From assembly GCF_000785105.2 (NCBI RefSeq), contig NZ_CP018906.1, forward strand, positions 868,001 to 932,000: a DNA stretch of 64,000 nucleotides. The letters are read 5' to 3'. Below, one piece after another: positions 1-6,005 of this stretch. The translations under genes were made by a program, and so were the position numbers. Numbering within the stretch: the stretch's first letter is position 1; each line of letters starts with the position of its first letter. Below the pieces are notes generated by a model that was given only the letters and a program-made list of their open reading frames with translations, did not search any database and had not been told where the DNA came from. Source of the DNA: Lentilactobacillus curieae. Lineage in GTDB: Bacteria > Bacillota > Bacilli > Lactobacillales > Lactobacillaceae.

Positions 1-1307
1 CGGATTCCAATACATAAATCAAGGTCACCGTTAAAACCAAGGTAGCCAATCCCACCGCCATAGATTCCCCGTTTGTTATTTTCTAGCTTGGCAATGATTT
101 GCATTGCGGAAACCTTTGGGGCTCCAGATAACGTACCTGCAGGAAGCACGGAGTCAACGATATCCATAGCAGTGATATCTTTAGCAGCTTGGCTTTCAAT
201 TACTGAACCTAGGTGCATCACACTCGAAAATTTAAGCAGATTTCTTGCAGAAATTACATTAACTGAGCCAAATTCGCTGACACGCCCAAGGTCATTTCTC
301 CCTAAATCGATCAGCATATTGTGTTCAGAAAGCTCTTTTTCACTGGTTTGAAGTTCCTTAGCGAGTTGTTGATCCTCGGCAGCGGTTTTTCCTCTGCGTC
401 TAGTACCAGCCAATGGATATGAAAATAGGCTTTCCTGACGTTTGGTGATCAAGGTTTCTGGGGATGCGCCAACCGATTCAAAATCATCGTGATGAAAATA
501 AAATTGGTATGGTGAAGGATTTTGGTTAAAGAACCTTCGAGCACTTCCTAACAATGAACCCTTAATTGTTGCCATGTGTGGATTAGATAAAATCAATTGA
601 AAGATATCGCCATCCACAATGTGCTGCTTAGTGGCAGCTACCTTTTTGCTAAACTCAGCTAATGAAAATTGAAGCTTCAGTGGTGACAATTCTGGAGCTT
701 TGATTGGTATTTGGGTTGTTGGTGACATAATTCTCTGCTTAAATTTATTAAGCTCAGCGGTTGTCTTTTCGAACAATTCTTCAACCCGACTTGCATTGAC
801 CAGCTTGATGATCGTTACCTGCTGTGAAGTATGGTTATACGCCACCACAGTTTTAACTAACATTAAGTCGGCATCGGCCAGTTCATGAGGATCTGTCACC
901 TGGGTAATTGATGCTGTGGTGGCATAACGCGAGTAATCATAGCCAAAGTAACCAACAACTCCACCAGTAAACGGTGGCAGTCCGGCTAACCTTGGTGTGC
1001 GATTTTGCTCAAGTAGATTCTCGACGAAGGGATGTAATGGAGTGGCGGTAGTCTTTAAGTCACCTGTAAAATTATCGATGGTGAGCTTACCATTTCGATA
1101 TGTATAACTAGCCTCTGGATCCACACAAATAAATGTATATCCATCTTCATTTTGTTTAGGCTTACCAGTCATCATAAGTGACGGCTTACCTGCAATCTGA
1201 AATTCTCTCATTATTGAAAGAGCGTCAAAGTTGGTATCCTTAAATTCAATTGTGATTGGTAGTAATGCGTAATCCTGCTTTAGGTTCAGTAAGTTTTCAA
1301 TGTTCAT
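1..1307 (-). CDS. trpE: Anthranilate synthase component I, C-terminus cut by window edge
   Basis: Makes anthranilate from chorismate, the first step of tryptophan synthesis, normally together with the TrpG glutaminase. About 435 codons are visible and the C-terminal end lies beyond base 1. The chorismate-binding domain motifs are present in order: GASPETL, LAGTRRRG, DLGRNDLGR, PAGTLSGAPK and GGGIGYLG. The ATG at 1307 follows a good ribosome site (GGAGGAA, about 1314-1320). PabB (aminodeoxychorismate synthase) is the main alternative; the Trp-type T-box and Trp-codon leader upstream favour TrpE. Further trp genes would be expected off the left edge, which I cannot see. Confidence 0.9.
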   Translation of the reverse strand, partial: MNIENLLNLKQDYALLPITIEFKDTNFDALSIMREFQIAGKPSLMMTGKPKQNEDGYTFICVDPEASYTYRNGKLTIDNFTGDLKTTATPLHPFVENLLEQNRTPRLAGLPPFTGGVVGYFGYDYSRYATTASITQVTDPHELADADLMLVKTVVAYNHTSQQVTIIKLVNASRVEELFEKTTAELNKFKQRIMSPTTQIPIKAPELSPLKLQFSLAEFSKKVAATKQHIVDGDIFQLILSNPHMATIKGSLLGSARRFFNQNPSPYQFYFHHDDFESVGASPETLITKRQESLFSYPLAGTRRRGKTAAEDQQLAKELQTSEKELSEHNMLIDLGRNDLGRVSEFGSVNVISARNLLKFSSVMHLGSVIESQAAKDITAMDIVDSVLPAGTLSGAPKVSAMQIIAKLENNKRGIYGGGIGYLGFNGDLDLCIGI

Positions 1308-1315
1308 AATGGGTT

Positions 1316-1353
1316 CCTCCGTTAAATTTAGTAGTTTATCAACTCAACGGAAG
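1316..1353 (-). promoter_or_regulatory. Hairpin that can mask the trpE ribosome site
   Basis: On the minus strand, CTTCCGTT (1353-1346) pairs with AACGGAGG (1323-1316), eight pairs with one G-U. The second arm is the trpE Shine-Dalgarno sequence. The first arm lies in the last codons of the leader peptide at 1339-1377, starting four bases after its only Trp codon. A ribosome waiting at that codon would cover the first arm and free the trpE ribosome site. The pairing is seen in the sequence; the mechanism is inference. Confidence 0.6.
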
Positions 1354-1377
1354 TTGCCATCGTCTTTCATAAATCAT
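1339..1377 (-). CDS. 12-residue Trp-codon leader peptide ahead of trpE
   Basis: Reads MIYERRWQLPLS then TGA. It has an excellent ribosome site (AGGAGG, seven bases before the ATG) and sits between the T-box terminator and trpE, 31 bases before the trpE start. The single Trp codon (1359-1357) is followed by codons whose RNA can pair with the trpE ribosome site. A T-box plus Trp-codon leader is known upstream of the anti-TRAP gene of Bacillus subtilis, so the architecture has a precedent. That it is translated is inferred from the ribosome site and placement. Confidence 0.65.
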   Translation of the reverse strand: MIYERRWQLPLS

Positions 1378-1393
1378 ATAAATTCCTCCTATC

Positions 1394-1690
1394 AAAAAAT
1401 CCGCCCTCACAAAAAAGAAATTGTTAAGGACGGAAATTCCGCGGTGCCACCTTAATTCAGCATTCACTTCAAAAAATAGGAAGATAAATACTGCCCTCAT
1501 GAGATACAATCATATCTCTGACAACTGACGTATGTCGAAACGTTTCCCCGTACTAAAATTTCGGAGGAACCCTCGGTGGTCCATTTAGCTAGCTGCGTTC
1601 GGTTACTTCTCAGCTCCAGTAACTCTCTGTGCGTGCACACTAACCTTGATCTCCACCTCATCGGTTTGATGGGCATGTAAATTTATATTG
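1394..1690 (-). promoter_or_regulatory. T-box leader, tryptophan type
   Basis: The conserved T-box sequence AAGGTGGCACCGCGGAA is at 1453-1437. It is followed by a terminator whose arms are at 1434-1427 and 1407-1400, with a six-T run. The stem I base is GGTGG/CCACC (1657-1653 with 1579-1575). The triplet just inside it on the 3' side is TGG followed by A (1583-1580), the position expected for a Trp specifier. Uncharged tRNA-Trp would stabilise the antiterminator and allow trpE transcription. Confidence 0.88.
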
Positions 1691-2062: not shown

Positions 2063-3073
2063 ATGATTATCGTTATTAAACCAGGAAATGAAGCAATGGT
2101 GCATGAAATTAGTCAAAGGTTTGCTAATAAAGCAGACGTTTTTACTCACGGAAACCGGGTGGCAATTCAGGGTGCTGACCGTGATTGTTTAAGTGCAGAA
2201 GAATTGGCGGCCACTCAGGAAATTATTGAAAACCATCCAGCAGCAATTCAAGGCAGTCGGGTATTTCATCCTGAGGATACGGTAATCGAAACTGCCCATA
2301 GTCTAATTGGTGGCGATAACTTTACGATGATGGCGGGACCATGTTCAGTAGAGTCATTGGCCCATGTTCGGAAAATGGCTGCTGTCGCCAAACAAGGCGG
2401 CGCCACAGTTTTACGTGGTGGTGCATTCAAACCCAGAACCTCACCATACTCATTTCAAGGTTTAGGTGAACCGGGATTAAAGTTTTTACGCCAAGCAGCA
2501 GATGAATTTGGTATGGATGTTTTAACTGAAGTTATGGATGAAGATCACGTAGAAATGGTTGGCAAGTACACTGATATTTTTCAAATTGGCGCTAGAAACA
2601 TGCAAAACTTCTCGCTATTAAAAGCGGTTGGTAAGACTAATATTCCGGTGATGTTGAAGCGCGGGATGTCCGCAACCGTTGATGATATTTTGAATGCAGC
2701 AGAGTACATTGCGGCTGGTGGAAATGAACAGATTATGATTGCTGAAAGAGGAATTCGGACGTTTGATAACAAATATACTCGGAACACTCTAGACGTTGGT
2801 TCTGTGCCAGTCTTGCAGAAGTTATCACACTACCCAGTAATCGTAGACCCAAGTCACGCTGCCGGACATACAGAATTTGTTACCCGTGAGGCGTTAGCTG
2901 GGGTGGCGATTGGAGCTAGTGGACTAGTGGTTGAGATTCATGATGATCCAGCACACGCATTTTCTGATGGTGCTCAAGCCCTGAAACCTGATGAGTTCCA
3001 AGCAATGGCTGATAAAGCATTTGCTATTCGTTCGTTGGTCAAACCAAATCAGAAGGCTGAGGTGAATGCTTAA
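2063..3073 (+). CDS. aroF: 3-deoxy-7-phosphoheptulonate synthase (DAHP synthase)
   Basis: Condenses phosphoenolpyruvate with erythrose 4-phosphate to give DAHP, the entry to the shikimate pathway. 336 residues: an N-terminal ferredoxin-like regulatory domain (about 1-66) precedes the TIM barrel, as in the Thermotoga-type class. Family motifs seen are AGPCSVES, FKPRTSPYSFQG, KRGMSAT and DPSHAAGH. The start follows the ribosome site TGAGGGA. It overlaps aroB by one base, so the two are probably translated together. Expression is likely set by the aromatic leader and attenuator upstream; the N-terminal domain suggests feedback control of the enzyme as well. Confidence 0.93.
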   Translation: MIIVIKPGNEAMVHEISQRFANKADVFTHGNRVAIQGADRDCLSAEELAATQEIIENHPAAIQGSRVFHPEDTVIETAHSLIGGDNFTMMAGPCSVESLAHVRKMAAVAKQGGATVLRGGAFKPRTSPYSFQGLGEPGLKFLRQAADEFGMDVLTEVMDEDHVEMVGKYTDIFQIGARNMQNFSLLKAVGKTNIPVMLKRGMSATVDDILNAAEYIAAGGNEQIMIAERGIRTFDNKYTRNTLDVGSVPVLQKLSHYPVIVDPSHAAGHTEFVTREALAGVAIGASGLVVEIHDDPAHAFSDGAQALKPDEFQAMADKAFAIRSLVKPNQKAEVNA

Positions 3074-4230: not shown

Positions 4231-4513
4231 TAATCGGCTGTGAAGAGAAAAGTAGCTGCTCTATTTCAGATTAGAGAGGTCCATCTTAGGTGAAATTGGA
4301 TCGCTGAACGGAGTAAGTGAAAGTAGTCTCTGAGCCGCAAACGCGAGAGTGATTTAGTGTTTGCTGGGTGCGCCCATTACAGCGCCAGTGTATCGCGGAA
4401 TTTCCGCCGTACATGATGAGACAATGGCTGTGAGGTCGTTGTGAAGCTGGGTGGTACCACGAATTCTAAATCAATTCGTCCCTTGAAGTTATTAACTTCA
4501 AGGGACTTTTTTT
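4231..4513 (+). promoter_or_regulatory. T-box leader before brnQ, possible valine specifier
   Basis: The T-box sequence TGGGTGGTACCACG is at 4448-4461. The terminator is GTCCCTTGAAGTT/AACTTCAAGGGAC (4478-4490 with 4494-4506) plus seven T. Stem I pairs AGAGA (4244-4248) with TCTCT (4327-4331). The triplet plus purine directly inside that helix is GTA-G (4323-4326), which would make the leader read tRNA-Val. This suits a branched-chain carrier, but I placed the specifier by eye. Confidence 0.85.
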
Positions 4514-4536: not shown

Positions 4537-4629
4537 ATGAAATTTAAATCAGCTGGCGGGATTACCCGAGTGAAAATGATGACAATGTTGACTGGTAACT
4601 TACGAATTAAAGAGGAGAGATTTACATGA
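4537..4629 (+). CDS. 30-residue ORF coupled to brnQ
   Basis: Starts at an ATG after AAAGGAGAA and reads 30 codons to a TGA that overlaps the brnQ ATG (ATGA). It lies after the T-box terminator, so it is made only on antiterminated transcripts. The peptide is basic, is not rich in Val, Leu or Ile, and has no membrane segment. It could be a coupling leader that delivers ribosomes to brnQ or a small protein of its own. I do not recognise it. Confidence 0.45.
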   Translation: MKFKSAGGITRVKMMTMLTGNLRIKEERFT

Positions 4630-6005
4630 ATAATCAGGAAACTAAATTAGGGATGAAACACTATATTATTATTGGATCAATGTTGTTCGGGATGTTCTTT
4701 GGTGCCGGGAATCTAATTTTTCCAATTCATTTAGGACAACTCGCAGGATCAAACTGGTTAATTGCCGGAATTGGGTTCTTATTAACTGGAACACTCTTAC
4801 CATTATTAGCAATTATTGCAATCAGCGTTACTAGAAGTAGTGGAATTTATGATCTGGCAAAACCAATTGGTAGTAAATACGCAACATTTTTCATGTTGTT
4901 AGTTTGCGCAACATTGGGACCATTATTTGCCACTCCCAGAACCGCAACTGTACCATTTCAAATTGGATTTGCCAGTCATTTAAGTAAGGCCGATCAACCA
5001 TTGTGGCTGTTTATCTACTCACTTATTTTCTTCGGAATTACCTACTGGGCGTCAAGAAAGCCAACGAACATTATTAATACCATCGGAAAATTACTTAACC
5101 CTGCATTTTTAATCTTACTAGCAATTATTTTTGGGTTCGCATTTTCACAACCAATCCATGGTGGCAACAGCATGACCCCATCAACTGGTTATGGTAACGC
5201 AGCAATGCTTAATGGTTTTCTTCAAGGCTATAACACAATGGACTGTATTGCTGGATTACTCTTTGGGATTGCGATTGTTACTGCAATTAAAGGCCTAGGT
5301 GCTAAGAGTCCTCGTCAGATTTCAATGACAACATTAAAATCAGGACTACTTGGGATTGGTCTTGAAGCAATTATCTACATTGGGCTAATTTGGTTAGGCT
5401 CTACTAGTTTGAGCATGTTTAAAACCAGTATTGATGGTGGAATTGCATTCAACCAAATTGCCAATCATTACCTTGGTATGACCGGACAAATTATTTTAGC
5501 AATCATGGCTACCCTTACCTGCTTGACTACCGCAGTTGGGTTATCAGCATCATTCTCTGAAGCACTTCACAGAAAGTTCCCAAATATTTCATACAGAACG
5601 TTTAACATCATGGCAGTTGGTTTCTCATTTGCATTTGCTAACGTTGGCTTGGATACCATCATTGCTTGGTCAACTCCAATGTTGATGTTCCTTTATCCAC
5701 TTGCAATCACTCTGATCATCTTGTCGATTACTTCACCACTATTTAACAAGGATCGTAGAGTTTACATCTGGACCACCATTTTTACCATTATTCCAGCAAT
5801 TTTGGATGCAATTGCTTCAGCTCCAGCAATTATCTCTAAATCAGCAATTGCTCAAGGAATTCTTAAATTGGATAACTTCTTGCCAGGAGCAAGTCTTGGA
5901 ATGGACTGGTTACTACCTGCAGGAATCGGGCTAGCAATTGGTTTGATCATCCACTTTGCAACTTCATTCAGTGGTGAAAAGGCAACTGAAATCGAACACG
6001 AATAG
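4626..6005 (+). CDS. brnQ: Branched-chain amino-acid carrier, LIVCS family
   Basis: A 459-residue membrane protein with about 12 hydrophobic segments, of the BrnQ family that imports Leu, Ile and Val with a cation. The N-terminus has the family signature GMFFGAGNLIFP, and ATLGPLFATPRTATVPF follows near residue 100. The ATG at 4626 has ribosome site AGAGGAGAG and overlaps the stop of the 30-codon ORF. Control by the upstream T-box would raise uptake when a branched-chain tRNA is uncharged. It is followed after 22 bases by an antiporter gene. Confidence 0.92.
   Translation: MNNQETKLGMKHYIIIGSMLFGMFFGAGNLIFPIHLGQLAGSNWLIAGIGFLLTGTLLPLLAIIAISVTRSSGIYDLAKPIGSKYATFFMLLVCATLGPLFATPRTATVPFQIGFASHLSKADQPLWLFIYSLIFFGITYWASRKPTNIINTIGKLLNPAFLILLAIIFGFAFSQPIHGGNSMTPSTGYGNAAMLNGFLQGYNTMDCIAGLLFGIAIVTAIKGLGAKSPRQISMTTLKSGLLGIGLEAIIYIGLIWLGSTSLSMFKTSIDGGIAFNQIANHYLGMTGQIILAIMATLTCLTTAVGLSASFSEALHRKFPNISYRTFNIMAVGFSFAFANVGLDTIIAWSTPMLMFLYPLAITLIILSITSPLFNKDRRVYIWTTIFTIIPAILDAIASAPAIISKSAIAQGILKLDNFLPGASLGMDWLLPAGIGLAIGLIIHFATSFSGEKATEIEHE

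Follow-up and report, generated by a model that had tools for sequence, protein, structure and literature searches.

The upstream region of trpE

The window, i.e. the whole stretch of 64,000 nucleotides of Lentilactobacillus curieae DNA that was analysed (contig NZ_CP018906.1, positions 868,001 to 932,000), carries the gene trpE on the minus strand, preceded by a T-box and a short ORF. The following features were located in this region:

1423..1670, minus strand: Trp T-box leader (RF00230, 99.7 bits, gathering threshold 93, full model 1-219)
1581..1583, minus strand: specifier codon TGG (Trp), read by eye on the RF00230 alignment (AAATGGACC)
1394..1433, minus strand: T-box terminator hairpin and U-run, by eye (CCGTCC/GGGCGG, then ATTTTTT)
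1385..1390, minus strand: ribosome-binding site AGGAGG of the leader, from sequence reading
1339..1377, minus strand: leader ORF MIYERRWQLPLS with stop codon, from sequence reading and conservation in relatives
1357..1362, minus strand: CGA-TGG, an Arg codon and the sensed Trp codon (CGA-Trp order in 50/50 trpE leaders)
1341..1353, minus strand: putative 5' arm of the SD-masking stem, directly past the Trp codon (folding and cognate/re-dealt duplex test)
1316..1328, minus strand: putative 3' arm of this stem, holding the trpE SD GGAGG at 1320-1316 (folding and duplex test)
1308..1312, minus strand: predicted 3' arm of an outer stem, partner of 1361-1357 (fold prediction)
3..1307, minus strand: trpE, anthranilate synthase component I, ATG at 1307-1305, running off the window (profile search)

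In the profile search, PF00425 and PF04715 scored above their cut-offs in trpE; the best NCBIfam model was TIGR00564 with 356.8 bits, which is below the cut-off of 517.7, and the gene piece is truncated by the window edge.

The initial annotation had described an ORF of 12 codons with a ribosome site and one Trp codon below a Trp T-box, and both elements were recovered. The ORF (M I Y E R R W Q L P L S; ATG 1377-1375, stop codon TGA 1341-1339) is separated from AGGAGG by seven bases and has its sole Trp codon at 1359-1357; a run of several sensed codons was not found in this leader. The eight pairs proposed between CTTCCGTT (1353-1346) and AACGGAGG (1323-1316) form as described, one of them being G-U, and belong to a longer predicted stem of 13 pairs (1353-1341 with 1328-1316, three G-U). 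In the predicted fold, an outer stem of five pairs additionally joins GATGG at the Trp codon (1361-1357) to CCATT (1312-1308) ahead of the trpE start. Behind the SD-masking hairpin comes AACCCATTATG, which has no U-run, and no terminator was recognised by eye between the leader ORF and trpE.

The predicted fold of this leader is unusually stable (-21.4 kcal/mol; shuffle mean -11.75; z -3.59), and none of 200 shuffles was as good. The duplex of the 21 bases past TGG with the trpE SD region reached -16.7, with shuffles averaging -6.9 (p 0.002, 500 shuffles). Placing a ribosome at the Trp codon raised the predicted chance of an open SD from 0.00 to 0.55 and lowered the modelled cost of opening it from 11.1 to 1.5 kcal/mol, which agrees with the proposal of the initial annotation that a ribosome stalled at this codon would unmask the SD of trpE.

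On the plus strand, a DAHP synthase gene was detected at 2063-3073 (PRK08673 above cut-off). It is preceded by a leader ORF with its own SD (MQTKPLAFSQSYYFWPR with stop codon, 1823-1876); behind this ORF come strong hairpins and, at 2000-2031, a hairpin with a T-run that resembles a terminator (fold z -5.19). This leader region (1823-2031) looks like an aromatic transcription attenuator. Peptides resembling it were found in relatives (MQNKSLTIAQAYYFWSR in L082, MQTNSLTIAQSYYFWPR in L031 and L100, MQTNFCNLVQYYYWSR in L015 and L088), and none was found in L004.

Conservation of the leader among Lactobacillaceae

TrpE-like matches were present in 109 of 397 Lactobacillaceae genomes. The 18 weakest matches (E 9.8e-76 to 2.8e-65, 34-38% identity), which are probably PabB, were excluded, and the upstream regions of 91 were read. 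A T-box core was identified in 88 of these regions, and in 50 of the 91, belonging to eight genera, an ORF that contains a Trp codon and is preceded by an SD lies between the core and trpE. By genus tag, the ORF occurs in 18/20 regions of g1 (Lentilactobacillus, the genus of the window), 11/12 of g20, 7/7 of g38, 3/4 each of g4 and g33, 3/3 of g13, 3/6 of g3 and 2/4 of g12; it was found in none of the other eight genera among the 91 regions. Typical peptides are MKTKRWQFPLN, MFKRWQLGC, MKRWQC and MFNRW. The conservation of ORF, start and Trp codon, by which the initial annotation proposed to judge the leader, thus holds for a part of the family and fails in 41 of the 91 regions, so the leader is dispensable.

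The codon before Trp is CGA in all 50 trpE leaders, even though the scan did not require it. As a background, CGA makes up 14% of the Arg codons of the window (n = 507) and 19% of those in the loci of nine named relatives (n = 658).

Among the 38 regions with a T-box core and without the leader ORF, the gap between core and gene is shorter than 105 nt in 32; in the regions carrying the ORF it is at least 119 nt in 47 of 50, and for the three leaders at less than 105 nt the start was estimated from the query. Because the gap is short in most regions without the ORF, its absence looks like the loss of the entire piece. The distance from the Trp codon to the trpE start is narrowly kept (median 55 nt, IQR 52-58.75, range 48-91, SD 8.5), whereas the distance from the leader stop to the trpE start varies more (SD 18.3). 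We infer that the narrow distance leaves space for an initiating ribosome.

Outside the family, no Trp leader ORF was found at 53 non-Lactobacillaceae trpE loci, 35 of which have a T-box core. The strict KRW pattern occurred in 7 of 322 Lactobacillales genomes that do not belong to the Lactobacillaceae, and by eye none of the seven showed a T-box or a trp gene (about 200 nt upstream).

Predicted pairing of the leader with the SD of trpE

For the stem tests, 48 distinct leaders from the 50 were used, and the 21 bases past the Trp codon were paired with the SD region and compared to dinucleotide shuffles and to re-dealt partners. The cognate duplexes had a mean of -10.26 kcal/mol, in comparison to -7.09 for non-cognate partners within a genus and -6.07 between genera; the re-dealt mean was -6.37 (SD 0.32), which gives a z of -12.3 for the cognate arms. 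When each genus was represented by a single leader, none of 2000 shuffles was as good as the cognate pairing. The compensatory changes looked for in this stem are apparent at the level of the family: re-dealt arms pair less well than cognate ones, so that the lineages hide the SD with sequences that differ between them but match within each. Individually, 26 of the 48 leaders were at p<0.05 versus dinucleotide shuffles. A stem beyond chance was not found in three g3 leaders (L142, p 0.50; L143, 0.29; L146, 0.86), one of which is from Paucilactobacillus kaifaensis, and p was >0.4 also in L083, L086, L090, L091, L104, L111, L113 and L172.

In a further analysis, a model ribosome with an assumed footprint (+12 nt) was slid along the leaders. 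Opening the SD cost 5.74 kcal/mol on average without a ribosome, and between 6.4 and 5.2 kcal/mol as long as the ribosome was two or more codons short of Trp; with the A site two codons before Trp the cost was 5.15, one codon before it 3.35, at Trp 2.88, and it fell little further beyond. The drop near Trp indicates that this codon is about where a stall would first free the SD. The gain at Trp was 2.87 versus 0.20 with the 21 nt shuffled and was positive in 46 of 48 leaders, where the relatives are not independent and the binomial values of the test are indicative only. Since the SD stays cheap to open past Trp, frequent passage of ribosomes over the leader could be enough to open trpE.

Leaders below other Trp T-boxes

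A second copy of the arrangement, consisting of a Trp T-box, MKQNPGKRWQANHL with stop codon and trpD, is located 4.9 kb past the window in the same genome. A search of the 397 genomes with the KRW pattern yielded 33 matches at trpE and 86 others that were frame-checked (69 in frame, 17 not); 22 further matches were excluded by eye as repeats or as seemingly gene-internal. A T-box core accompanies 50 of the 69 in-frame places, and 49 were kept after L235 had been set aside, where the KRW match is the N-terminal end of the NhaC protein. These 49 leaders precede 37 trpD-type genes (that of L216 truncated), two trpB genes, five OppA-like genes and two short TrpB-like fragments, and in three cases no recognised start follows within 260 nt; the genes were named by profile only for L237, L210, L228 and L254 and otherwise by N-terminal likeness. 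In L212 and L246, a KRW leader stands before trpD without a matching T-box core nearby. The set was found with a pattern that contains CGA, and the codon is therefore not independent evidence here; in the T-box surveys described below, which did not select for it, CGA was present in 3/3 trpD leaders.

The stems of the trpD, trpB and OppA leaders are weaker (7/40 at p<0.05, z -4.1), and the trpD leader of the L. curieae genome itself has a p of 0.545. The modelled gain at Trp was 1.40 versus 0.21 for shuffled sequences and exceeded the latter in 29 of 38 leaders.

Some of these loci have particular arrangements. In five genomes of genus tag g15 (L254-L258), a Trp T-box and a KRW leader precede a gene that resembles the one for the OppA-type peptide-binding protein in L254, and the leader extends about 95 nt into this gene in a different frame. 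The position of an OppA-type gene under a Trp T-box suggests peptide uptake as a source of Trp. In G339 and G331 (L211, L212, L215, L216), tandem KRW leaders lie about 300 nt apart with a short TrpB-like fragment between them and a short TrpD-like ORF after them, perhaps a decayed or rearranged trp locus. Genomes of genus tag g26 (L218, L219, L221-L223) have a trpD-type gene with T-box and KRW leader, and their trpE has a T-box and no leader. Past the KRW leaders of L238, L240 and L250, a repeated sequence (AGGACAGCT...) was detected, possibly an insertion, and a trpD start is missing from the next 260 nt.

Leaders below Val, Tyr and Ile T-boxes

The window contains a second T-box with a leader ORF behind it:

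4231..4486, plus strand: Val-type T-box before brnQ (RF00230, 93.7 bits, gathering threshold 93; specifier GTA by eye)
4537..4629, plus strand: Val leader ORF MKFKSAGGITRVKMMTMLTGNLRIKEERFT with stop codon, overlapping the brnQ start (sequence reading; relatives)
4567..4572, plus strand: CGA-GTG, an Arg codon and the sensed Val codon past GGIT (sequence reading; relatives)
4626..6005, plus strand: brnQ, branched-chain amino acid carrier (TIGR00796, 354.4 bits, cut-off 243.4)

T-boxes were surveyed, without selection for CGA, in three genomes (30 of 36 examined in the L. curieae genome, 30 of 37 in G209 and 28 of 28 in G385). Among 29 surveyed T-boxes of the L. curieae genome for which a gene was found, eight are more than 100 nt away from it, and six of these eight are followed by an SD-preceded ORF with codons of the amino acid of the T-box. 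The six are the leaders of trpE and trpD (both CGA-TGG), brnQ (Val; beginning with MKFKSAGGITRVKMM, CGA-GTG), nhaC (Tyr; MLDMEFTSNGGIVRY with stop codon, CGA-TAC) and two Ile-rich ORFs without CGA. Leaders with matched codons were also identified in G209 (Trp, Trp, Val, Tyr) and G385 (Trp, Trp and one Ile-rich). The surveys yielded ORFs without a matched codon as well (L284, MEELLC; L398; L400; L411).

The Ile T-boxes (L283 and L294 in the L. curieae genome, L413 in G385) stand before an LIVCS carrier and a gene weakly resembling 2-oxopent-4-enoate hydratase. The Ile-rich ORFs behind them begin with MESQIDISQIS, MKSEIIIPENDPGQIQI and MESNISGIKNDSQIQI and do not follow the CGA rule.

For nhaC and brnQ, the best 30 matches each were inspected, which are no random draw. 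Among these, nhaC leaders show GG[LIM]xR-Y in 24 of 30 loci, with CGA as the Arg codon in 20 of the 24, and brnQ leaders show GG[LI]xR-V in 25 of 30, with CGA in all 25; L312 and L357 also show the motif, lie outside the start rules and were not counted. Short string matches pointed to Tyr-type specifiers upstream of 28/30 nhaC loci and to Val-type specifiers upstream of 27/30 brnQ loci. Gly-Gly and the following [LIM] are kept as amino acids, since their third bases vary, and Arg is kept mostly as CGA.

The nhaC leaders form a stem beyond chance (z -5.8; 13/24 at p<0.05), and their modelled gain at Tyr was 2.64 versus 0.28 in shuffled sequences, being above the shuffled value in 23 of 24; the cost of opening the SD begins to fall about three codons before Tyr. 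In the brnQ leaders the stem is weak (z -2.7; 3/25 at p<0.05; p 0.32 for the leader in the window), and the gain at Val was 1.22 versus 0.07 (above shuffled in 17 of 25).

The CGA codon

Six tRNA-Arg genes are present in the L. curieae genome (acg twice, tcg, ccg, cct and tct). The tRNA-Arg with the anticodon TCG is encoded by a single copy (L458, 144-215, plus strand) alongside the two ACG copies. Poor reading of CGA by tRNA-Arg(ICG) through inosine wobble was considered as the reason for this codon; the explanation is weakened, since CGA has its own reader in the TCG tRNA-Arg and inosine wobble need not apply. An ORF starting out of frame from the ATG inside CGATGG was rejected by eye, as neither its length nor its frame is kept. 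Possible roles of CGA are the low copy number of its reader, an effect of its tRNA in the P site, or assistance by the nascent peptide (GG[LIM]xR).

Proposed mechanism and alternative explanations

Region 1377-1316 is very probably a translational attenuator that senses the charging of Trp-tRNA below a T-box sensing the same, and one member of a device found across the Lactobacillaceae; the evidence throughout is comparative or modelled. If charged Trp-tRNA is ample, the ribosome would cross the 12-codon leader and depart, and the bases past the Trp codon would pair with the SD of trpE and hide it. If charged tRNA-Trp is short and the T-box has allowed read-through, the ribosome would halt with CGA in the P site and TGG in the A site; the 5' arm would then lie under the ribosome, which would allow translation of trpE. 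The T-box would thus read uncharged tRNA by binding at transcription, and the leader would read the same tRNA via the ribosome. We infer that the leader is translated, that the ribosome stalls and that control has this direction. A single sensed codon is few for an attenuator and counts against this explanation.

In its general form, the device would consist of a T-box and a short leader, in which a sensed codon matching the T-box (Trp, Tyr or Val) directly follows an Arg codon, nearly always CGA, and usually lies 50 to 70 nt upstream of the gene start. Comparison of the sequences supports the ORF, the matched codon, CGA, the spacing, a co-varying masking stem at trpE and nhaC, and the reuse at other genes. 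The initial annotation, which had read the trpE leader as a second sensor of Trp, is supported by these comparisons and by the modelling, and beyond it lie the invariant CGA before TGG, the reuse at trpD, trpB and OppA-like genes, and the leaders at Val and Tyr T-boxes. The Lactobacillaceae leaders look like a family-wide second sensor that matches the amino acid of the T-box. As a tentative extension, to which we give somewhat less than an even chance, Arg(CGA)-X, in many cases preceded by GG[LIM]x, may be a programmable cassette: CGA and the nascent residues would hold the ribosome so that the single codon X senses the charging of X-tRNA, and evolution would retarget the cassette by exchanging X along with the specifier of the T-box (Trp, Tyr, Val).

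Conservation of Gly-Gly-[LIM]-x-Arg as residues with varying third bases in the nhaC and brnQ leaders would also be expected if the KRW or GG[LIM]xR-Y/V peptide itself stalled the ribosome, with the amino acid or tRNA modulating its release. However, some Trp leaders start with M-K-R-W (L113, L172), which is too short to extend down the exit tunnel, and it is CGA that is retained, not merely Arg; arrest by the nascent peptide is therefore unlikely.

Plain translational coupling, in which the ORF is translated to open the SD stem of trpE and the Trp codon is incidental, appears improbable. It would fit the low cost of opening the SD once the ribosome is past Trp, and some leaders extend into the gene (L082, L109, L129 and the brnQ leader of the window). 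The sensed codon, however, follows the identity of the T-box (Trp, Tyr, Val), for which neither simple coupling nor chance offers an explanation; moreover, it keeps a more constant distance to the gene than the stop codon does, and the opening cost drops within one to three codons of it.

CGATGG could further be conserved as RNA, i.e. as part of a structure or as a protein site, instead of as codons. The hexamer is invariant in 50/50 trpE leaders while its neighbours vary, and in the window GATGG pairs with CCATT ahead of the trpE start. Yet the Tyr and Val leaders mostly retain CGA and continue with TAY or GTN, the outer stem is absent by eye from L082, L098, L115 and L119, and SD and frame are conserved in all 50 leaders, which makes this explanation very doubtful. 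A chance ORF with a chance pairing can practically be dismissed: short ORFs and matches of eight pairs are generally common, but the z of the stem, CGA-Trp in 50/50 leaders and the positive modelled gain in 46/48 argue strongly against it.

Comparison with known attenuators

The initial annotation named anti-TRAP of Bacillus as a precedent, which we consider the right one. In B. subtilis, rtpA (anti-TRAP) is reportedly preceded by a T-box and the Trp leader peptide rtpLP (work attributed to Chen and Yanofsky, 2003 and 2004); the leader is said to have three consecutive Trp codons, and the target is said to be an antagonist protein. Both arrangements share a Trp T-box and, behind it, a short leader with Trp codon, which in the lactobacilli would likewise govern translation of the next gene, so that uncharged tRNA-Trp would be sensed at two levels. 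The principle of tandem sensing is therefore known. Unlike rtpA, the leader in the window has a single Trp codon behind CGA, the lactobacilli belong to a different bacterial family and also use Tyr and Val, and their targets are trpE, trpD, trpB, OppA-like genes, nhaC and brnQ.

In translational attenuators of the erm/cat type, a masked SD becomes accessible when a ribosome stalls on the leader ORF, as proposed here; the trigger there is an antibiotic, whereas at trpE it would be a hungry codon. The trp operon of E. coli has a ribosome-mediated attenuator whose leader peptide contains codons of the regulated amino acid. The trpE leader of the window differs from this type in that no terminator was seen by eye between leader ORF and gene; termination would be handled by the upstream T-box. 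Ribosome-mediated attenuators are also described, in the accessible parts of the respective articles, for the ilv-leu leader of S. aureus, with codons of the regulated amino acid (PMC5794164), and for his leaders in Firmicutes (PMC2965389, PMC9413887), and some of them mask the ribosome site instead of terminating transcription (PMC9413887).

The titles of Chen and Yanofsky (2003, 2004) appear among the references in the accessible part of PMC11255114. T-boxes located 300 to 480 nt from the starts are discussed in the accessible part of PMC2494555, where leader peptides are not named. Among the matches listed, titles and abstract openings of the open-licence PMC literature contained no leader peptides under T-boxes of lactobacilli; the surveys of Vitreschak 2008 and Gutierrez-Preciado 2009 could contain such. 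As far as this open-licence literature was searched, what appears to be new is the occurrence of tandem control at genes for biosynthesis and transport in Lactobacillaceae, the inclusion of Tyr and Val alongside Trp, the use of one Trp codon preceded by CGA, and a shared GG[LIM]xR motif.

T-boxes are usually treated as complete switches. In many genera of lactobacilli, such a switch seems to be joined by a second, ribosome-based sensor for the same amino acid at genes that serve the synthesis and import of Trp, Tyr and Val, and if the cassette reading is true, the same aminoacylation would be read twice per message by two unrelated machines. A second sensor would alter predictions of when a gene is on, add a set of short genes and make it testable why a single codon after CGA can suffice as a sensor of starvation.
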